Positions 5,700-63,798 of a stretch of DNA of 64,000 nt are shown here, in pieces. Positions within the stretch are counted from its first letter, which is position 1; the number at the start of each line of letters is the position of its first letter. The notes under the pieces were generated by a model, which did not search any database, was not told where the DNA came from, and was given only the letters and a program-made list of their open reading frames with translations. The DNA comes from Nitrospirota bacterium. GTDB lineage: Bacteria > Nitrospirota > Nitrospiria > Nitrospirales > Nitrospiraceae. The position numbers and the translations under genes are program-made. The stretch covers positions 62,001 through 126,000 of the forward strand of contig JACRLR010000021.1 in assembly GCA_016219645.1 (NCBI GenBank), written 5' to 3'.

Positions 5700-5878
5700 G
5701 CCCGCATTATTCATGAGGGTTCGTGACGAAACCGCTGAGACGCATTGTGAGACGGACAAGCGCAGCCGGGAAGGAGGGAAGCATACTTGAACAGTATGTT
5801 GACCGACTGAGTGGCGAGCGCGCCCGTCGGAACAGCGTATCGGCGGTTGCAGCAGAAGCCTTCGTGAATAATGCGGGC
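5700..5878. mobile_element. Family M element: 179 bp with about 44-bp imperfect terminal inverted repeats
   Basis: The left end (5700-5743, GCCCGCATTATTCATGAGG...) and the reverse complement of the right end (GCCCGCATTATTCACGAAGG...) agree at most of 44 positions, 14 of the first 15 being identical. The interior has no convincing gene. The size and structure are those of a MITE or a REPIN-like pair of repeats. A solo end of the same family lies at 26970-27013. The element occupies the space between msrA and the LOG-like gene, and its right end is 20 bases before that gene's start. Confidence 0.7.
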
Positions 5879-8609: not shown

Positions 8610-8690
8610 AGGTCAATGTTGAGATTAAGGCCAAGAAAGCCAGAGCCTGACAGACGCTTAACCTTAACCTCGACCTTAACCTGTTGCACT
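8610..8690. repeat. Weak family W region after the aminotransferase gene
   Basis: GTTGAGATTAAGGCC on the left and CTTAACCTTAACCTCGACC on the right are reiterated words with imperfect mutual complementarity. The pairing is looser than in other family W palindromes. Confidence 0.45.
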
Positions 8691-13762: not shown

Positions 13763-13887
13763 GCAGGCTGTTCAAAAAGGCCGTCAGCAAGGCCGCAGCG
13801 AGCGAAGAGGCGAGGCGTACCCTTGTGGTACGTTGAGCCTCTGAGCGAAGTGAGAACGAAGCTGGCGGATTTTTTCAACAGCCTGCT
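13763..13887. repeat. Family T repeat, copy 1, supplying the stop codon of the yceI-like gene
   Basis: This 125-bp palindrome has an outer stem (CAGGCTGTTCAAAAAGGCC at the left, TTTTTTCAACAGCCTGCTA at the right) and an inner hairpin GAGGCGAGGCGTACC...GGTACGTTGAGCCTC. Further copies are at 15571-15693, 20266-20389 and 59806-59933. The right terminus read on the - strand is TAGCAGGCTGTTGAAAAA, and its TAG is the stop codon of the YceI gene. Confidence 0.9.
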
Positions 13888-15570: not shown

Positions 15571-15693
15571 CAGGATGCTCAAAATGGCCGTCCAGCAAGG
15601 CCGCAGCGAGCGAAGAGGCGAGGCGTACCCTTGTGGTACGTTGAGCCTCTGAGCGATGCGAGAACGATGCTGGCGGACTTTTTCAGCATCCTG
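15571..15693. repeat. Family T repeat, copy 2
   Basis: Same organisation as copy 1 with outer words CAGGATGCTCAAAATGGCC and TTTTTCAGCATCCTG. It lies between the divergent TonB-C gene and tdh. Unlike the other three complete copies its terminus reads ATCAGGATGCTG rather than TAGCAGG, and it does not touch a stop codon. Confidence 0.9.
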
Positions 15694-15780: not shown

Positions 15781-16815
15781 ATGCAAGCCCTCGTGAAGAC
15801 ATCGACAGGACCGGGGTTGACCGCCTCCGATAGGCCGGATCCGAAACCAGGCCCCACCGATGCGGTCGTTCGCGTCAAGGCCACCTCTCTCTGCGGGACG
15901 GATGCCCATATCTACAATTGGGATCCGTGGGCGCACAGCCGTATCCACCCGCCGCGCATCATCGGCCATGAAATGTGTGGTGAAGTCGTGGAAGTCGGCT
16001 CGGATGTGACGCTCGTCAAGACGGGAGATTACGTCGCCGCCGAGTCGCATCTCACATGTGGTCACTGCTTCCAATGTCGAACCGGACAGGCGCATGTGTG
16101 TAAGAATTACCGTATTCTCGGGGTCGATAGAGACGGGTCATTCGCAGAGTACCTGGTCCTGCCCGAAACGGTGCTCTGGAAGTCTTCGCCTACCCTCCCA
16201 CCGGAACTCGCCTGCCTTCAAGAACCGCTCGGCAACGCAGTCGACGCAGCCTTAGTCGAAGACCTCACCGGACAGACGGTCTTGATCACTGGATGCGGTC
16301 CGACCGGACTCTTCGCTGCTGCCGTCGCACGAACAGCCGGGGCTGCCATGATCATTGCCACGGATGCCAGCGCGTATCGCCTGGACCTTGCCCGCCAGGT
16401 CGGCGTCGATCATGCGCTCAACGCCAAGACCGAGACGGCGGACCGCATCGCCGCCGCCATTCGTGACATCACCGGCGGTGAGGGCGTCGACGCCTCGCTC
16501 GAAATGTCGGGGAACCCCACCGCACTACACCAGGCTTTCAATGCCGTGAAGAACGGAGGTCGCGTCACGCTTTTTGGTATTCCAACCGGGTCCGTGTGTT
16601 TTGACCTGCCAAACGAAATTATTTTTAAAGGCATCCGCGTGTATGGGGTGACAGGCCGCCGGCTCTTCAAAACCTGGTATCGCTTGGCCGGTCTCTTCCA
16701 GGCAGGACTCAATATCAAGCCGGTGATCACCCATACGTTTCCGATGAGAGACTTTGCGCGCGGATTCGAATTGATCAATTCAGGCCAATGCGGGAAAGTG
16801 GTCTTGATTCCGTAA
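15781..16815 (+). CDS. tdh: L-threonine 3-dehydrogenase
   Basis: TDH oxidises threonine to 2-amino-3-ketobutyrate with NAD. The 344-residue protein keeps the catalytic zinc ligands C38, H63 and E64 (SLCGTD; IGHEMCGE) and the structural-zinc cysteines 93, 96, 99 and 107 at the numbering familiar from the E. coli enzyme. The nucleotide loop is TGCGPTGLFAAAVA. An in-frame extension runs back to 15568 through a family T repeat and is not credible, so the ATG at 15781 is chosen. The next gene is kbl, so the pair should convert threonine to glycine and acetyl-CoA. The TAA stop lies inside the left arm of a family W palindrome. Confidence 0.95.
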   Translation: MQALVKTSTGPGLTASDRPDPKPGPTDAVVRVKATSLCGTDAHIYNWDPWAHSRIHPPRIIGHEMCGEVVEVGSDVTLVKTGDYVAAESHLTCGHCFQCRTGQAHVCKNYRILGVDRDGSFAEYLVLPETVLWKSSPTLPPELACLQEPLGNAVDAALVEDLTGQTVLITGCGPTGLFAAAVARTAGAAMIIATDASAYRLDLARQVGVDHALNAKTETADRIAAAIRDITGGEGVDASLEMSGNPTALHQAFNAVKNGGRVTLFGIPTGSVCFDLPNEIIFKGIRVYGVTGRRLFKTWYRLAGLFQAGLNIKPVITHTFPMRDFARGFELINSGQCGKVVLIP

Positions 16816-16912
16816 GGGGTTAGGCGTCAGGCGTAAGGTGATGGAAACCCGTGCTCCGTTCTTGCCAGCGCTTCACGTTTCACGCCTTACCCCTGACGCC
16901 TAACGCTTCACG
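16811..16912. repeat. Family W palindrome between tdh and kbl
   Basis: The left arm (16811-16840, CGTAAGGGGTTAGGCGTCAG...) pairs with the right arm (16871-16912) at about 25 of 30 positions. The left arm contains the TAA stop of tdh and is identical at 29 of 30 bases to the arm at 31670-31699. The right arm ends 6 bases before the kbl start codon, so on the mRNA it could both weaken read-through and mask the kbl start. Confidence 0.8.
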
Positions 16913-16918
16913 AAAAAG

Positions 16919-18112: not shown

Positions 18113-18203
18113 TGTTTGTTTAGTTTATTTGGTCTATTTGGTTCATCTGGTTTCTCTCGTTCACAACCAAACAAACCAGACCAACAAGATGAACTAAACA
18201 AAC
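18113..18203. repeat. Family W palindrome (TTTGGT/ACCAAA words) after kbl
   Basis: GTTTGTTTAGTTTATTTGG begins the left half four bases after the kbl stop, and the right half ends GATGAACTAAACAAACC. The halves are complementary in several registers because of reiterated GTTTGG/CCAAAC words. It lies between two convergent genes (kbl and mlaA), where a bidirectional terminator would be expected. Confidence 0.75.
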
Positions 18204-20265: not shown

Positions 20266-20389
20266 CAGGATGCTCAAAAAGGCTGTCCAGCAAGGCCGCA
20301 GCGAGCGAAGAGGCGAGGCGTACGCTTCGGTACGTTGAGCCTCTGAGAGAAGCGAGAACGATGCTGGCGGACTTTTTCAGCATCCTGCT
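20266..20389. repeat. Family T repeat, copy 3, supplying the stop codon of the outer-membrane barrel gene
   Basis: The element runs from CAGGATGCTCAAAAAGGCTG to ACTTTTTCAGCATCCTGCTA with the inner hairpin GAGGCGAGGCGTACG...GTACGTTGAGCCTC. On the - strand its end reads TAGCAGGATGCTGAAAAA, and this TAG is the stop codon of the gene at 20388-21041. Confidence 0.9.
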
Positions 20390-29711: not shown

Positions 29712-30841
29712 GGAGCGGCGACTGGCTGGGATCCGAGGGAGGCCTGTATCTGTTTCCAGTCAAACGTAAAAGGCGCCGGTGATGTTTTCGGCAGGGCAGC
29801 AAGCTCCGCTTTCAATCGTTCGGCCCTGGCGGCGCTCATCGGATGTGTCGAGAGCCATTCCATCCGTCCTTCGTCTTTTTCCGAGAGGCGTTCGAAAAAC
29901 CGGATCATGCCGGAGGGATCGATCTTCGCCCGCTGGAGTAGCTGCAATCCCGTTAGATCGGCTTCGGTCTCCTGCTCCCGGCCGAACTTGAGCGTGAGTA
30001 GTTCAAGTCCGAGCTGCTTCATCATTCCGACGAGTCCCTGTTGATTGCCGAACACAATGGCCACCACTGTCAACAGCCCAAGATTTTTGACGGTCCGTTC
30101 GAGCCCATGCCGCTGCAGCACGTGGTTCAACTCATGGCTCAGCACACCCGCCACTTCTTCACCGCTCTCCGCCTTTTTCATGAGCCCGGTGAAGACCACC
30201 ACAAACCCGCCAGGTAAAGCGAATGCATTGATGATGTCGCTCCTTACCACAGTCACTTGAAACTTGTAGGGATTGTTCAGAATCTGCTCGGTCAGGCGAT
30301 GGGTCATTTCCTCAACTGCCGCAACCCCCGGCCCCTCTTTGACGACCTCCTGATGGCTGAGAAAATCTCGATAGGCTGATTCGCCAAGTTTTTGTTCCCA
30401 CTCCACGGGAATCCGGCTCACGGCGATATCGACCAAAATATCGGCCCCGAACCAAAGTCCCAGCACCGAAGACAGGATTGCCCCGCCAACTATGCTCCAG
30501 ACGAGCCGGCGCCGGTGACGCACCTGACGCACCTGCTCCGCAGCCTGCGCAAAGGAGTGACTCAAATGATCAGGCGCCGCTTGGCGGAATGCGCGAATCA
30601 CATCAGGGTTCTTTAAATAGAGCGTCCGCTCCCCTTTCTGCCCGGCCCACTTCACGACAAGTTGGTCGTGGTCCAGGCCCCCTGCCGAGACAGTGAGGCT
30701 TGAAAAAAGAACGGGCTCCTGATGGCCGTCGGCAGTATCAGGCTCAAAAGTGACGGTGAGTCCATGTCCCTCGATTTGAACAAGACATGGCACGCCGGCA
30801 GCGGGAAACTCGTCGCCGAAACAGAGGGCGTTGGGACTCAT
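29708..30841 (-). CDS. M48 family zinc metalloprotease, membrane-anchored
   Basis: The product (377 residues) has a cytosolic or N-terminal beta-rich region (1-105), a basic stretch RHRRR, one membrane helix (about 114-131) and then an M48 peptidase domain. The zinc motif is HELNH at 236-240, with the distal glutamate in EQETEADLTGLQLL. Conserved M48 parts NAFALPGGFVVVFTGLM and WLSTHPMSAARAERLK are present. It is related to BepA/HtpX-like proteases that degrade or assemble envelope proteins. Cotranscribed with the downstream phosphoesterase. The N-terminal region, possibly a DUF-like beta domain, is not part of standard M48 proteases. Confidence 0.9.
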   Translation of the reverse strand: MSPNALCFGDEFPAAGVPCLVQIEGHGLTVTFEPDTADGHQEPVLFSSLTVSAGGLDHDQLVVKWAGQKGERTLYLKNPDVIRAFRQAAPDHLSHSFAQAAEQVRQVRHRRRLVWSIVGGAILSSVLGLWFGADILVDIAVSRIPVEWEQKLGESAYRDFLSHQEVVKEGPGVAAVEEMTHRLTEQILNNPYKFQVTVVRSDIINAFALPGGFVVVFTGLMKKAESGEEVAGVLSHELNHVLQRHGLERTVKNLGLLTVVAIVFGNQQGLVGMMKQLGLELLTLKFGREQETEADLTGLQLLQRAKIDPSGMIRFFERLSEKDEGRMEWLSTHPMSAARAERLKAELAALPKTSPAPFTFDWKQIQASLGSQPVAAP

Positions 30842-30844
30842 AGC

Positions 30845-30940
30845 GGGGGAACCGGGGTAAGGGGACAGCGGGGTAACGCGGTGCTTGTCTTGTCACTCAT
30901 TCCTCTATCCCCTTACACCCCATATTCCGTTTCCCCCTCG
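30845..30940. repeat. Imperfect family W palindrome (GGGGTAAGGGG words)
   Basis: GGGGGAACCGGGGTAAGGGG on the left and CCCCTTACACCCCATATTCC then CCCC on the right are partly complementary. It fills the region between the stop of the AIM24 gene (leftward) and the start of the M48 gene. Confidence 0.55.
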
Positions 30941-30967
30941 ATTCCTCTACTTCCCACTTTCTACTCA

Positions 30968-31651
30968 CTACTCACTTACTGGGATGAATTGCCGTATCCA
31001 CGCCCCAAAACTTCCCGGATTCCGGCTTTGAATATAGACGAGTCCTGGCCCTCGGAACCGGCAGACAAACCCCTCGCCCGAGGTGAAGCTGGCCACCCAA
31101 CCGGAGGTGGCCTTTTCGATATTGTAGGAGGTCGTCGTGGACCAGGCCACCAGGTGGCTGTTGTCGACAATGTATTCCTGGTTGGGCTTCAGTTCGATTT
31201 TGTGAATGGCCCCGAAGCTGTTCAGAACGAGCATCCCCTTCCCGCTGATTTTCAGAATGAAGAAGCCCTCGCCGCCCAGCAATCCACGGCTCATGCTCTG
31301 CATTTGGCTTTCGATGACGATCCCGTCGGCGCCGGCGAGGAATCCGTCTTTTTGCACCATGTACTCGTTCACACCATCGAGTTCCAAGATGGCAATTTCC
31401 CCCGGCACGGTCGGCGCCAGCAAGGCTTCACCAGGGCCGCGGCTGGCGCGTAGGGTCTGGAAAAAGAATTTTTCTCCTGTCAGGAACTTTCGAGACAGGG
31501 CTCCAAGAAAACCACCTTCCATCTTGCTTTCAATGTCGATGGTCGGGGAACAGGCTACCATCGCGCCCGACTCAGCTTTGATGTTCTCACCCGCTGCCAA
31601 TTCCACCCGCACCATGGGAAATGCCCCTGGATATAGAATTTCAGACTTCAT
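30968..31651 (-). CDS. TIGR00266/AIM24 family protein
   Basis: The product (227 residues) is a double-psi-like beta-barrel protein of the AIM24 family. Diagnostic segments are GAFPMVRVELAAGENIKAES, GAMVACSPTIDIESKMEGG, EALLAPTVPGEIAILELDG and YIVDNSHLVAWSTTTSYNIE. The family occurs in bacteria and mitochondria; in bacteria it is of unknown function. No signal peptide. A good ribosome site (GGGAGG) precedes the ATG. The final residues RGPGLVYIQSRNP SFGAWI end in the family manner. Confidence 0.92.
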   Translation of the reverse strand: MKSEILYPGAFPMVRVELAAGENIKAESGAMVACSPTIDIESKMEGGFLGALSRKFLTGEKFFFQTLRASRGPGEALLAPTVPGEIAILELDGVNEYMVQKDGFLAGADGIVIESQMQSMSRGLLGGEGFFILKISGKGMLVLNSFGAIHKIELKPNQEYIVDNSHLVAWSTTTSYNIEKATSGWVASFTSGEGFVCRFRGPGLVYIQSRNPGSFGAWIRQFIPVSE

Positions 31652-31669
31652 GCATCGATCCTCCCGATT

Positions 31670-32151
31670 CGTAAGGGGTTAGGCGTCAGGCGTAAGGCGC
31701 AAAATACTCCCGACCAATGTCCGCCATTAGTGCTTACCGCTGTTAGCCTTCTGATGACGAATGAGCCCGCTAAGCATCTTGTCAATTCGCTCAACTTGCT
31801 GATCAAAGATCAGCCAATTGTCGTGCTCAACGTACCCAAGCCTTTTTGCAAGTTCGAGTTGAGTATCTAATTCGCTCAGCGACCCTTGCGCCATGTGTAG
31901 GTAGTTGATGAACTCTTTTCGGGTTTGACGACCTGCTCCCTCGGCAACATTGCTCGGAACACTCAAAGCAGCCCTTCGGATTTGGTCGGTGAGACTATAG
32001 CGTTCGTCCTTGGGAAAGCCTTCTGTAGCACGATAAAGGTCGACCGCCAGTTCCAGAGCTGTATTCCACAGGTCTAGTTTTTTATGCGGCTTGTCCATGT
32101 CTTGGCCGCTTTCTGAGATATCGCCTCACACCTTACGCCTAACGCCTCACG
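31670..32151. mobile_element. Family W palindrome with a four-helix-bundle gene between its arms
   Basis: The left arm 31670-31700 (CGTAAGGGGTTAGGCGTCAG...) and the reverse complement of the right arm 32121-32151 agree at 25 of 31 positions. The left arm is 29/30 identical to the arm at 16811-16840, where the same palindrome has only about 30 bases between the arms. Here the 420-base interior holds one small gene (31727-32098). The structure suggests that a gene has inserted into the loop of an intergenic palindrome. Confidence 0.6.
31727..32098 (-). CDS. Four-helix-bundle protein (23S rRNA intervening-sequence type)
   Basis: The 123-residue product matches the S23/IVP family, first seen in intervening sequences of bacterial 23S rRNA genes: LDLWNTALELAVDLYRATEG, FPKDERYSLTDQIRRAALSV, PSNVAEGAGRQTRKEFINYL, MAQGSLSELDTQLELAKRLG. 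These proteins form a pentamer of four-helix bundles and may bind nucleic acid; related Avd proteins assist retroelements. It is not in an rRNA gene here. It has no clear ribosome site. The whole gene sits inside an inverted repeat of family W, reminiscent of the way 23S intervening sequences occupy helix loops. Confidence 0.9.
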   Translation of the reverse strand: MDKPHKKLDLWNTALELAVDLYRATEGFPKDERYSLTDQIRRAALSVPSNVAEGAGRQTRKEFINYLHMAQGSLSELDTQLELAKRLGYVEHDNWLIFDQQVERIDKMLSGLIRHQKANSGKH

Positions 32152-32155
32152 GCAT

Positions 32156-33640
32156 CTACCCCGCTACCCATCCATACACTCGGTGACTCGGTTCCGGTCC
32201 TTCATCGAGGTAACTCATCCTGATTTGGCCTAGCGCATCCTTGGGCACTTCATGCCGTTTTGCCTTCACATCGATTCCAAAAATTCTGGCCGCGTTGAGT
32301 CCAAAGATCTGCTCCTTCACCCGTCGTGTGAGAGGTTGATAGCGATGCCTGTCGAGCAGTTGGTCGGGAATCTGAAATCGTCTGAATGCCTCAATTTGCC
32401 ATTGCGGCGTCCCGTACCAAATCGAGTCAGTTCCCCATAGCACATGATCGGCACCGAATGTTTGAATAATCTGCCCCAGCAGATGCGCGCAGGCTGACGG
32501 CTGAGTTGTCACAAGCTGGCCGAAGGTCGAGCCGAGTTCCATATAGATATTGCTGATTCCCGGCTCTTGCTGTTTCATGCGGCAAAACTCGGTCGTCCAG
32601 GGAATCTCGCCCGTCCTTAGCGCGCCCTCGTTCATATTTGCCGTGCTCTTGAGCCCCGAGTGATAGACTAAAAAGTCGATGTCGGGGAAATCCTTCGCGG
32701 CTTTGATCAAATCCCTTGGGTGGTTGTAGTCCGGCACGGGGCCAAGCGGCAATCCCTTGTGGACACAGACCCTCTTTACGTTGAGCTTGCGTGCCTGCTC
32801 CAACATGGGATAGGCAATCCGCTCATCATCCATCCACCAGCCCCGATCGAATCCCTTTGGACAGGATCCGGTATAGCACTTCCAGGCCTCGACCTTGAGA
32901 GTTTCCGCCTGTAGGGCCATGAAGTCGAGATCTGCTGTGCCAAGCTGTGGTGTGACGAGTCCATGGGCCAACATGCGCTGGGAACCGGCAACACGATTCA
33001 CCTCATCGCGAATATGCGCCATCTCCTGCGGCGGTACAACGGCCTCTTGCGGATAGGGTCCTGGTGGCGTACTGATCAGTCCGATATTTGTCTCACTGTC
33101 GAGAAAGACTTCTTTCACAAAGTTGCGCCAGGAGAGGTCGTCAAGTGTACCTGTATCGCCTGCCAGCTTGGGGTTAAGTCCCGCTTCGCGGATCCTGCGG
33201 CGCAGAGATAGCAATGCCTGTTTGGACACTCCTCCTCTGCGATGGCTCTCCGCCTCCGTGGGGTCGTAATGAGATCCCACATAATGGGTCTGTACGTCAA
33301 AGATGAAGTAGGGGTCTCCCTGTTGTTCTGCAAAGGCGGCAGACTCGAATAACTCGATTTCTCCTATGTCGAAGAACCGTCCGAAGACCGAATTCATCGC
33401 CAGCAACGCACCGGCCACTCCGCTCGTCGTTTTGAGAAAGTCTCTGCGGGTAAGGCCCTGTCGTGCGGCGGATTGTTCAATTATCGCTGCTGCGATCTGT
33501 TCAACGCGAGCTTGGTCTGCGGTCTGGCCAAAGGGCGCAAACTCCCCGTTTGAGACGCTCTGAGTCGGTACCGCAGAACGAAGGGTTTTGCCTTGTTGTA
33601 CTACGAGGCTTTTCCAAGCGGGATGTTGGAGAGGCGCCAT
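32156..33640 (-). CDS. Tat-exported amidohydrolase (Amidohydrolase_2 type)
   Basis: The 494-residue product has a twin-arginine signal with TRRDFLK (arginines 65-66) followed by TTSGVAGALLAMNSVFG. A 60-residue segment precedes the Tat motif, unusual for a simple signal, so an internal start is possible. The mature part resembles amidohydrolase-2 TIM barrels: IFDVQTHYVGSHYDP at the start, RVCVHKGLPLG, DIDFLVYHSGL, YMELGSTFG, and VLWGTDSIWYGTP near the end with the metal-binding Asp. The usual HxH is replaced by QTHY, so the first metal site may be altered. Substrate unknown. A promoter with TTGACA lies upstream. Confidence 0.82.
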   Translation of the reverse strand: MAPLQHPAWKSLVVQQGKTLRSAVPTQSVSNGEFAPFGQTADQARVEQIAAAIIEQSAARQGLTRRDFLKTTSGVAGALLAMNSVFGRFFDIGEIELFESAAFAEQQGDPYFIFDVQTHYVGSHYDPTEAESHRRGGVSKQALLSLRRRIREAGLNPKLAGDTGTLDDLSWRNFVKEVFLDSETNIGLISTPPGPYPQEAVVPPQEMAHIRDEVNRVAGSQRMLAHGLVTPQLGTADLDFMALQAETLKVEAWKCYTGSCPKGFDRGWWMDDERIAYPMLEQARKLNVKRVCVHKGLPLGPVPDYNHPRDLIKAAKDFPDIDFLVYHSGLKSTANMNEGALRTGEIPWTTEFCRMKQQEPGISNIYMELGSTFGQLVTTQPSACAHLLGQIIQTFGADHVLWGTDSIWYGTPQWQIEAFRRFQIPDQLLDRHRYQPLTRRVKEQIFGLNAARIFGIDVKAKRHEVPKDALGQIRMSYLDEGPEPSHRVYGWVAG

Positions 33641-42367: not shown

Positions 42368-43021
42368 TTACTTGGCGGTGGCGTCCTCGTTGTCCGACGC
42401 TGGGTGCAGGGCAGGCTTCGTCAGCTGTCCCGATTCCAACAGGAGCAGAAAACGGGACGCCAAGTCCTCGGCGATAAAACGGCCGGCCTGTTCCAACGCC
42501 CGGTTCTGTAAGGCTCGGTTGAAATTTAGGTCGGTTGTCACGAAGAACTCCGAGGCGCCCTTCGCCGTTTGTGTCCACACGACACGTTTTGTCCTCGTCT
42601 CCTCCACCTTGACCACCACCACGACCTCTGTTCGGCTTTCGAGCGTAGTGGTCCGGCTGAAGCTGAGCGTCGGCATGATCACTGAGAGAATTTGCCCGGA
42701 GAGTACGAGATCAGCCGCCTCACTATCCGCAACAATCTGAGCCCCACTGCCGGAAGAAAATTCATGCCGCAGGTAGTTCGTGTAGCGGGTTTCCAGGTTT
42801 GGCTCAAAACTCTTGTTTTCCAAGGTCTGAACTATCAGCCGGGGTGGCGGTGACGTGGAAGATGATACCGCCGTTGTGCTTCCGATTGTGGGTCCCGCTC
42901 CCTCTACACGGAATTGGTAGCCGCAGCCGACCAAGAGCGCGAGACATGCGAGACTAGCGAGACTTGCTCGACAAGCAAGAATCAGATCCCGCGGGGCACG
43001 TTGTTTGTCCACGTCTCGCAT
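42368..43021 (-). CDS. lptE: LPS-assembly lipoprotein LptE
   Basis: LptE plugs the LptD barrel that inserts lipopolysaccharide in the outer membrane. The 217-residue product has a lipoprotein signal with LALLVGCGYQFRVEG (lipobox LVGC). The mature domain shows LIVQTLENKSFEPNLETRYT, NYLRHEFSSGSGAQIVADSE, AADLVLSGQI, then EFFVTTDLNFNRALQNRALE and QAGRFIAEDLASRFLLLLES, the LptE pattern. The start at 43021 gives a 20-residue basic N-region before the hydrophobic core; an internal start is possible. It follows leuS by 24 bases and precedes holA, the common arrangement leuS-lptE-holA in many Gram-negatives. Confidence 0.9.
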   Translation of the reverse strand: MRDVDKQRAPRDLILACRASLASLACLALLVGCGYQFRVEGAGPTIGSTTAVSSSTSPPPRLIVQTLENKSFEPNLETRYTNYLRHEFSSGSGAQIVADSEAADLVLSGQILSVIMPTLSFSRTTTLESRTEVVVVVKVEETRTKRVVWTQTAKGASEFFVTTDLNFNRALQNRALEQAGRFIAEDLASRFLLLLESGQLTKPALHPASDNEDATAK

Positions 43022-45685: not shown

Positions 45686-46381
45686 GACCACGGGCCGTCT
45701 GCTGAATAGCGGTGAAAAATCTGTGACCGAGACGAACTGGGTGAGCGGGGTGGGGGGCAGTTGAGAACTCGACTTGGCACTATGAATGAGATGGGCGACG
45801 CCAAATTCTTTTGCTGCAGTCAGGCAATGCTCATCATCGTCCATGAAGAAGGATCTTGCCACGTCGAATCCCAGTAACCGCTGGCAACTGGGCCAGTACT
45901 CCGGACGCATTTTCAGATACCCGACTTCAAACGCGTTCACAATTCGATCGACATGCCGGTCCAGCCCGGTCTTGGCGACTTTGATGGCTACGCCCGATTC
46001 ATGGGCATTCGTCACGATCGTCACCCTCTTTCCCAGCTGGTGTAGGTGTTGCAGAAATTCTTCCGCACCCGAAAGAAATCCGATCATGTGATCCAATTCC
46101 CGATGCAAGGCGACGACATCGATCCCCACACGCCTGGTCCAATAATGCAGATCAGTCCAGGCTAACTCGCCTTCGACTGAGCGGTACATTTCCAGTAGTG
46201 TGTCGCGAGATTCCTCAAGCTGTAGATCATGAAGTGCGGCATAACGACGGGGCAGCTCCTCTTCGAAAAAAAAGTTGTCGAAATGCCGGTCGAGCAGAGT
46301 CCCGTCCATGTCGAGCAGGACATCGTCGATCTGGCTCCAGTCGACGACGTGAGGGGTAAGGGGTAAGGGGTAAGGGGTCAC
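45683..46381 (-). CDS. HAD phosphatase, YrfG-like (GMP/IMP nucleotidase)
   Basis: The product (232 residues from GTG 46381) is a HAD hydrolase close to E. coli YrfG, which dephosphorylates GMP and IMP. Motif I is LLDMDGTLLD, motif II VTIVTNAHES and motif IV SFFMDDDEHCLTAA. The segment DMDGTLLDRHFDNFFFEEEL resembles YrfG. The frame is open to ATG 46459, but a TATACT six bases before GTG 46381 suggests a leaderless start there. The first residues, [11 protein letters not shown], are coded by a family W arm that faces the mirror arm in der. The stop codon comes from a family T end. Confidence 0.85.
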   Translation of the reverse strand: MTPYPLPLTPHVVDWSQIDDVLLDMDGTLLDRHFDNFFFEEELPRRYAALHDLQLEESRDTLLEMYRSVEGELAWTDLHYWTRRVGIDVVALHRELDHMIGFLSGAEEFLQHLHQLGKRVTIVTNAHESGVAIKVAKTGLDRHVDRIVNAFEVGYLKMRPEYWPSCQRLLGFDVARSFFMDDDEHCLTAAKEFGVAHLIHSAKSSSQLPPTPLTQFVSVTDFSPLFSRRPVV

Positions 46382-46537
46382 GAGCAGAGTATAGCGAATG
46401 CCAGGGACGAACACGAGAGCCGTTGTCTTTGTCGAAACTCCTGTGTTACGGTCCAACACGAGTTTTCAGTTCTTCGTTTCTCCGGTTTCACCATGACTTC
46501 CAACCCCTTACCCCTTACCCCTTACCCCTTACGCATT
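46350..46537. repeat. Family W palindrome reaching into both the YrfG-like gene and der
   Basis: The left arm (46350-46381, GTGAGGGGTAAGGGGTAAGG...) and the right arm (46504-46537, AACCCCTTACCCCTTACCCC...) are made of four GGGGTAA/TTACCCC words each. The arms encode PLPLTPYPL-like residues at the N-termini of both divergent genes. About 120 bases of intergenic sequence lie between them. Confidence 0.85.
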
Positions 46538-62316: not shown

Positions 62317-63798
62317 TCAGCTCTCCGGAGCCAACTTTATTTCTTTCACCTCCCCGAATCCCGACAGCAGCTTCGGCAGGGCTTCGCCGGAGCCGACTGC
62401 CAAAATGGTCAGCCGCTCAGGGTGAAAATGCTTCTTCGCCGCCGCCAGGATGTCCTCTTTCGTCAATGCGATCACGCGAGCACGCAATTGCTGGAGGAAA
62501 TCCTTGGGAAGCCCGTCATATTCCAGTGTCATCAACCGCCCCACGATCGCGGACGAACTGGCAAACGAGAACACAAATGAATTGACATACGCCTCTTTCG
62601 CTTCTGCCAGTTCGGTGTCTGTCACCAGCTCGGCCCTCATCCGTTCTATGTTCGCGACAAACCGGGTAATGACCTCCTGCGTCGAGGGCAGCTTCGTCTC
62701 TGCACGCATCAGCCAAACGCCTTGATCGTGCATGCCGGTGTTCAAACGGCTGCCGACCGAGTAAGCCAGACCCTGCCTGGTCCGCACGTCGTTAAAGAGG
62801 CGGCTGCGGAAGGAGCTGCCACCAAGAATGTCGTTCGCGATTGCCAAGGCGACATAGTCCGGATCGTTCTCTTTGATCGACAGATGGCCGATGCGGAGAT
62901 GCGTTTGAGATGTATCCTTGCTCACGAACCGTACAACGGGCTTTGCTGTCTTGACCTGGGGGACGTCGGCAATTGTCAGAACCGGCACCTCGCCTCTCTT
63001 CCAACCGCCGAACACGTCTTGCAGAAGGATCAGCATAGCGGACTTGTCGAAATCACCAGTCACTCCCAACATCAGGCCGTTTGGATGAATGGTCTTCCGG
63101 TGAAAGGCCACCAGATCGTCTCTGGTGATGCGGGTGATGGACGTAATGTCGCTTTCACGCGCCGTCGGGTGGTCTGCTCCGTACAGAAGCTTCATGAACT
63201 CGCGGCCGACAATAGAGCCGGGGTTGTCTTGCCTGCGGCGAATTCCTTCGATAGCCTGAAGCTTGGCCAGGTCGACCCTCGCCGGCTCAAAGGCGGGTGT
63301 CTGGATGAGACCTGCAAAAATCTGAAGGCCCCGCTTCAGATCCTTGCTGAGCACATCGAGTGACGCAGTACCGGATTGCCGTCCAATCGAGATGTTCACG
63401 TCCCCGGCAAACTGTTCGAGCTCTTCGTCCACTTGCTTGGATGATAAACCGCCGCCCCCCCCGGTTCGCATGACGGAGCCGGTCAAGGAAGCCAAGCCGA
63501 TCTTCCCTGCCGGATCGAGCCAGCTGCCTGTTCGCATGGTCGCAGTGATGCTGACCAAGGGCAGCTCATGGTCCTCAAGAAAATATACGGTCATCCCGTT
63601 CTCGAGTACCACGCGATCCGGTTCTGGCGGGGTGAACTCAACCGGTGGAAATGTCATCTGCCGCGGATCGCCCAGCGCCATCTCAGCCGCACAAGCGCTG
63701 AGCGCCGGGAGCAGAATCGAGATGACCAACAAACCGACGGCCATTGCACTACGCCTTACCCCTAACTCCTTACCCCTTACACGTTTCACGCCCCTCAT
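62317..63798 (-). CDS. M16 peptidase-like subunit lacking the active-site motif
   Basis: The 493-residue product is an M16 (insulinase-type) fold protein of the kind that pairs with an active M16 subunit. VVLENGMTVYFLEDHELPLV and SITATMRTGSWLDPAGKIGL are the first strands, but the HxxEH zinc motif is missing: the stretch reads ASLTGSVMRTGG. HNPGLILGVTGDF-like HPNGLMLGVTGDFDKS and VNSFVFSFASSSAIVGRLMTL are from the second half. The N-terminus contains a lipoprotein-like signal (MAVGLLVISILLPALSAC). The ATG at 63798 overlaps the upstream gene's stop by four bases; the next residues (RVRGKELGVRR) are coded by a family W half-site, so the start could be ATG 63744. Confidence 0.88.
   Translation of the reverse strand: MRGVKRVRGKELGVRRSAMAVGLLVISILLPALSACAAEMALGDPRQMTFPPVEFTPPEPDRVVLENGMTVYFLEDHELPLVSITATMRTGSWLDPAGKIGLASLTGSVMRTGGGGGLSSKQVDEELEQFAGDVNISIGRQSGTASLDVLSKDLKRGLQIFAGLIQTPAFEPARVDLAKLQAIEGIRRRQDNPGSIVGREFMKLLYGADHPTARESDITSITRITRDDLVAFHRKTIHPNGLMLGVTGDFDKSAMLILLQDVFGGWKRGEVPVLTIADVPQVKTAKPVVRFVSKDTSQTHLRIGHLSIKENDPDYVALAIANDILGGSSFRSRLFNDVRTRQGLAYSVGSRLNTGMHDQGVWLMRAETKLPSTQEVITRFVANIERMRAELVTDTELAEAKEAYVNSFVFSFASSSAIVGRLMTLEYDGLPKDFLQQLRARVIALTKEDILAAAKKHFHPERLTILAVGSGEALPKLLSGFGEVKEIKLAPES
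63744..63792. repeat. Family W half-site inside the start of the M16 gene
   Basis: The words CGCCTTACCCCTAACTCC and TTACCCCTTACACGTTTCACG are the same as in the palindromes at 16811-16912 and 46350-46537, without an obvious second arm nearby. It overlaps codons 3-19 of the M16 gene. Confidence 0.6.

Follow-up and report, generated by a model that had tools for sequence, protein, structure and literature searches.

A small Avd-like four-helix-bundle gene between inverted tandem-heptad arms as a candidate transposase-free mobile element of an undescribed type

We found that an intergenic gene of the IVP family and the two inverted arms around it look like an undescribed kind of mobile element, one without a transposase. 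Comparison between genomes showed the association of gene and arms, repeat units cognate to protein subfamilies, a common polarity of the arms, turnover at fixed sites, exchange of contents, inversion and constraint on the protein. We consider it probable that this is a mobile palindromic element in which two inverted arms surround a single gene, whose product is a small four-helix-bundle protein like Avd, and which spreads by hairpin replacement; each arm consists of four to five tandem copies of a unit of about 7 nt.

The IVP protein, probably a pentamer, would bind the cognate repeat array, perhaps with one subunit per repeat, and would favour the spread of its own palindrome, with gene-less palindromes as non-autonomous relatives that depend on it. 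Since the element carries neither nuclease nor transposase, the exchange would have to be done by host replication or repair enzymes or by an enzyme acting in trans. The simplest route would be strand or template switching at hairpins, by which one hairpin replaces another. On this view the 23S rRNA intervening sequences already described would represent the rare cases in which a copy came to lie on an rRNA hairpin. A wider proposal is made tentatively, at a little under an even chance: IVP would be the protein half of bacteria-wide, transposase-free mobile palindromes with tandem-heptad arms, which spread by replacing resident hairpins and account for several orphan heptamer families, including the 23S intervening sequences landed on rRNA hairpins. 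A literature search with preprints and most subscription journals outside its scope turned up no paper that connects IVP with heptamer palindromes, and neither the pairing of arms and gene outside rRNA nor the replacement behaviour was found in the literature searched.

On this proposal an unexplained family with two crystal structures gains a natural partner sequence, several orphan heptamers gain a candidate protein, and the pairing can be tested from both sides by binding assay. The form of mobility it suggests, hairpin replaced by hairpin with no carried recombinase, would, if true, explain why intervening sequences occur at the tips of rRNA helices.

The window locus and its protein

The window (the whole stretch analysed, 64,000 nucleotides) is part of a 141-kb contig (G000:C21) of the Nitrospira genome G000, and its features are listed in Table 1. 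The earlier note had described two arms complementary at 25 of 31 bases around a complete four-helix gene, with the left arm (31670-31699) identical at 29 of 30 positions to an arm beside tdh (16811-16840). Recomputation gave the same figures, and the gene proved complete. The loop of the tdh palindrome, put there at about 30 bases, measured about 46 nt between strict arms. An independent repeat search returned the window arms as a 30-nt pair with 83% identity. The 350-nt flanks of the gene reached a local alignment score of 35, a value attained by 0 of 500 dinucleotide shuffles (maximum 28). An Rfam search of positions 30500-33000 gave no match.

Table 1. Positions of the IVP element, its neighbours and other repeats in the window
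Feature	Position	Strand	Remark
Left arm, four tandem heptads GTNAGGS	31670..31700	+	G-rich strand inward
Right arm, four tandem heptads GTNAGGS, inverted	32121..32151	-	
IVP gene, four-helix bundle, PF05635/TIGR02436	31727..32098	-	123 aa
AIM24-like neighbour, conserved side of site	30968..31651	-	name from earlier note
Amidohydrolase neighbour, other conserved side of site	32156..33640	-	name from earlier note
Gene-less palindrome, GTNAGGS unit, beside tdh	16808..16915		loop inverted in relative G023
Gene-less palindrome, related unit (GTAAGGG)4	46348..46533		
Single heptad array GTAAGGN overlapping ORF start	63754..63790	-	
Gene-less palindrome region, 6-mer GGTTRA	8640..8682		ends approximate; unit of IVP locus L003
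9-mer GTTTRTYTG array	18114..18152		unit of IVP locus L004
GTGAGTA array	30949..30976		unit of IVP locus L002

A profile search identified the gene as PF05635 (23S_rRNA_IVP) with an E value of 1.7e-37, and its protein scored above the curated cut-offs of both family profiles (128.3 vs 33.8 bits for PF05635; 125.8 vs 24 bits for TIGR02436). An AF2 model of the protein (pLDDT 96) matched the crystal structures 2gsc (TM 0.90) and 2rld, and also Avd, the accessory protein of DGRs (4dwl, TM up to 0.80, probability 1.0). The fold is thus held in common with Avd, and the protein scored below the Avd profile cut-offs (bAvd 23.7 vs 40; NF033474 38.2 vs 80). Among the structure matches listed for the model there was no nuclease or transposase fold. 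Both crystal entries contain five chains each, which suggests, without proving, that the protein is a pentamer. The dN/dS ratio of IVP was about 0.09 over 183 pairs, with dS saturated in some, which indicates purifying selection and hence that the protein matters.

The IVP open reading frame is enclosed by terminal inverted repeats, as in the 23S intervening sequences with an IVP/S23p ORF of Coxiella and Leptospira, where a gene of the same family lies between stem-forming inverted repeats. Unlike these, the window locus is intergenic and lies between protein genes, not in rRNA; more generally, the loci studied here are intergenic, their arms are cognate to the protein subfamily, gene-less copies are dispersed, and there is no bias towards one RNA strand. 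The assembly of G000 yielded no 23S rRNA gene. Authors writing in 1990 and 1993 guessed that the 23S insertions might be transposition remnants or might encode a mobility factor, as cited in a later paper (PMC4990558).

Inverted arms around IVP genes across phyla

Loci were compared by aligning the upstream 350 nt of each IVP gene with its downstream 350 nt after reverse complementation; the null came from pairs whose two flanks belonged to different genes, and windows shifted by 850 nt at the same loci served as controls. Inverted arms exceeded the 95% null at 192 of 235 IVP loci and at 9 of 431 control windows; the census contains some nearly identical viral loci and counts L069 a second time as L257. 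The remaining ~18% of IVP loci had no arms above the threshold. The flanking repeats that the earlier note had suggested looking for in Nitrospirota were present at 82 of 94 loci from Nitrospira relatives and at 17 of 20 in a second batch; the corresponding counts were 37 of 44 on viral contigs and 56 of 77 in genomes of about 25 phyla. The association far exceeds chance in many phyla, the point on which the earlier note had staked its idea, and the pairing of IVP gene and arms is a general rule, not a peculiarity of the window. One scan gave at least 580 candidate IVP stretches.

Among the positive loci, the median arm was 28-32 nt and the best period was 7 in 132 of 178 (55/85, 34/37 and 43/56). 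The strand reading inward was G-rich in 174 and C-rich in 18 of the 192 elements, a polarity common to unrelated units and phyla. Arms made of short repeats do raise the odds of a self-match. A chance or low-complexity artefact is nonetheless refuted by the controls, namely the shuffles at the window, the shifted windows and a reversed heptad pattern that occurred 0 times in G000, and we regard it as having practically no likelihood.

None of the 60 genome loci tested for position lay in rRNA, so rRNA looks like the exception and intergenic DNA the usual habitat; the 23S insertions that gave the family its name look like exceptions.

IVP genes and palindromes of several families were also seen to cluster in hot-spot-like regions (G018:C6:39-49 kb, G018:C10, G019:C5 and G027:C10). 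A SAH riboswitch, probably unrelated, lies near an IVP gene in a Bordetella-labelled MAG (L249:369-445).

Turnover and exchange at fixed sites

At the window site, gene and arms were present in G000, G013 and G014. Three relatives (G004, G005 and G006) had 39 nt without arms there, the close relatives G018 and G023 as well as G019 had unrelated hairpins, and G024 had a single arm. In this comparison of orthologous loci with and without the gene, a check named in the earlier note, most relatives lack the arms as well as the gene, and in one a lone arm is present; the gene and its arms thus act as a single element. This locus gave no support to the view that the arms are a fixed landing pad older than the gene.

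Nine tandem-repeat palindrome families of similar size were found between the same two genes at the secG site (locus L065; secG named from the protein start MESILYIF) in 26 species. Some palindrome was present in 24 of the 26 and one species had 25 nt only. The IVP gene occurred there only in G001, and the nearest relatives, G003, G010 and G015, carried another palindrome family. The family must have changed at least 17 times on the tree, which is weakly resolved. Contents were exchanged within TCAGC-type arms at the L045 site, where five species had an IVP gene, eight had a DUF559 gene (PF04480, E 6.5e-33; two tested by profile, the others assigned by shared ends) or its apparent remains, and other species had short loops or stumps, with at least 12 content changes. 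At L366:1100-1384 and L381:3056-3472, DUF559 genes accompanied by CCTCCCCTTTGTAAGGGGAGG repeats of their own were nested in TCAGC arms. Besides IVP, DUF559 may be another gene family that belongs to palindromic elements.

The earlier note had proposed that stem-loops serve as landing sites outside rRNA. Exchange at the secG site (one IVP gene) and at L045 (IVP, DUF559 or short loops) speaks for this; against it, the arms are not neutral pads that were there beforehand, and the unit goes with the IVP subfamily. The idea is borne out in a modified form, in which one hairpin element displaces another and the arms belong with the gene.

The retention of a palindrome at the secG site in 24 of 26 species would also be expected if hosts need a hairpin at certain intergenic sites, where palindromes arise and are turned over by replication slippage and template switching, with IVP a mere rider in these tolerant places. 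Arms that remain complementary while diverging agree with such a need, and inversions fit template switching. It leaves unexplained the link between unit and IVP subfamily, the restriction of the GTNAGGS unit to IVP-bearing genomes and the consistent arms around IVP in many phyla, and we consider it unlikely.

In G027 (L070) the IVP gene was inverted relative to both flanks. Such inversion at the same site bears on a reading at the RNA level, in which selection acts on an RNA stem of the paired arms, RNase III cleaves this stem to take the insert out of operon transcripts, and IVP is incidental. A stem of this kind is known from the 23S intervening sequence of Coxiella, where the RNase III site lies at tandem heptamers (PMC4990558), and the window gene runs in the same direction as both neighbours. 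A selected stem in gene-sense RNA should show an excess of arm mismatches that allow G-U pairs. Compatible and other mismatches on the gene-sense strand numbered 99 vs 99, 27 vs 27 and 62 vs 83; with no strand bias, these counts give selection for an RNA stem no support. Along with the inverted gene, the lack of rRNA locations among the 60 loci and the constraint on the protein make the RNA-level reading improbable. The Coxiella heptamers are also what would be expected if 23S insertions are landed palindromes.

Some observations count against the mobile-element reading. Homologues with more than 90% protein identity had homologous outer flanks in every pair, so gene-bearing copies move rarely. 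We found no clean insertion with a target-site duplication; exchanges replaced most of the intergenic region, and empty sites were not alignable to base resolution in this comparison. IVP elements resemble MITEs and insertion sequences in their inverted terminal repeats and short gene-less copies. They differ in that they carry no transposase and no clear target-site duplication was seen, in arms that are tandem repeats with variable positions, and in that different families share one site.

Over long divergence, and only in the range of 60-75% protein identity, an element's two arms resembled each other more closely than the same-side arms of homologues did (36.7 vs 29.0). Short-term concerted evolution of arms was not seen, as above 75% identity the same-side arms of homologues were more alike than the two arms of one element.

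Cognate repeat units and gene-less copies

Comparison of proteins with arms showed that the repeat unit groups with the IVP subfamily. Arm similarity was 0.57 at 60-70% protein identity vs about 0.22 below 50%, and the link held also for pairs without similar outer flanks. The protein search gave eight IVP matches in the genome of the window and the family profile nine. Inverted arms enclose five of the best of these genes, and the unit differs in each case: GTNAGGC, GTRAGTR, GGTTRA (6 nt), a GGTTGATCT-like unit (9 nt) and an AGATTTC-like unit. The three-heptad pattern occurred 117 times in this genome.

Fifteen of the 37 gene-less arrays on G000:C21 matched arms of the genome's own IVP genes. 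Own IVP arms were the best match to a genome's arrays in three of four genomes (G000, G018 and G019); the exception was G026, whose arrays fit the IVP arms of other genomes better than its own. The GTNAGGS pattern was found in 25 of 38 sampled genomes with IVP and in 0 of 23 without, and within the genus in 22 of 28 with IVP and 0 of 4 without; this co-occurrence is partly a matter of ancestry, since both are mostly absent from the other families of the order. Densities were taken from 141 kb of G000 and from sampled parts of relatives: per 100 kb, the IVP-free G020 had 0 tandem-arm palindromes, G019 had 5 and G026 had 12, and the IVP-free G015 had one tandem palindrome in 46 kb. This palindrome in G015, short arrays of the GTGCTGA unit in G002 and G009, the poorer fit of the G026 arrays to its own arms and the IVP loci without arms above the threshold count against our preferred explanation.

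A further point against it is that gene-less palindromes have loops with no relation to the inner ends of the IVP element, so these palindromes are not simple deletion derivatives, and their origin as internal deletions of the element was rejected.

In REP/BIME systems with RAYT, the gene is flanked on either side, in opposite orientations, by a repeat whose family also occurs scattered with no gene and is specific to the protein subfamily. The IVP gene likewise lies between inverted, dispersed, subfamily-specific repeats, so here too a protein subfamily is paired with a cognate dispersed palindrome. The differences are that RAYT is a Y1 (HUH) transposase and IVP a four-helix bundle without such a domain, the gene between the window arms being PF05635, and that REPs are single hairpins and IVP arms tandem heptads.

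A cognate unit that occurs next to the gene as well as at scattered places, in tandem arrays that resemble iterons, could also belong to a sequence-specific DNA-binding regulator or nucleoid protein. The repeats would then be operators, serving autoregulation beside the gene and a regulatory or structural role at other places, with no mobility involved. The TAACTGA and Geobacter heptamers have been interpreted as regulatory (PMC4679880, PMC2700814). Yet the arms stand inverted on both sides of the gene, not upstream only; sites switch families and contents between close relatives; the element is absent in some relatives; and IVP is present on viral contigs and plasmids. We give this reading little credence.

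The cognate pairing assumed for the mobile element extends to Xanthomonas, where three orthologues of XCC0516 lie between GGGAATC arms. Rehm et al., published 2015, describe this heptamer as scattered, each genome holding 70-75 inverted pairs, and their paper does not mention XCC0516 (PMC4692102). The orphan heptamers of Xanthomonas (GGGAATC), Geobacter and Beggiatoa (TAACTGA) are likewise tandem, the first two often in inverted pairs, and in the accessible parts of the papers they are presented as G-quadruplex or regulatory repeats without a protein partner (PMC4692102, PMC2700814, PMC4679880).

Several further arrays of the window differ between relatives. The palindrome at 46348..46533 has a counterpart in G018, where the loop is homologous, the left side carries a GTGCTGN array and the right arm is missing. 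The place of the GTGAGTA array holds another repeat element in G018 and a GGGATAN array in G023. In G018 the counterpart of the array at 63754-63790 is of the GTGAAAC/GCGAAAC type.

Core sites of integrons resemble GTTAGGC; this likeness was dropped, because the other units do not fit.

A further dispersed palindrome of about 120-180 bp (GCAGGATGCTCAAAAAGGCCG ... CCGCCAGC) was observed in several copies on the contig (in the window at ~5700-5878, 13763-13886, 15571-15693 and 20266-20387) and at exchange sites in relatives. The intergenic site 42938-42967 (G000:C21:104930) holds a GCGAGAN palindrome in G000 and G023 and a AAGTACAAAGT palindrome in G018.
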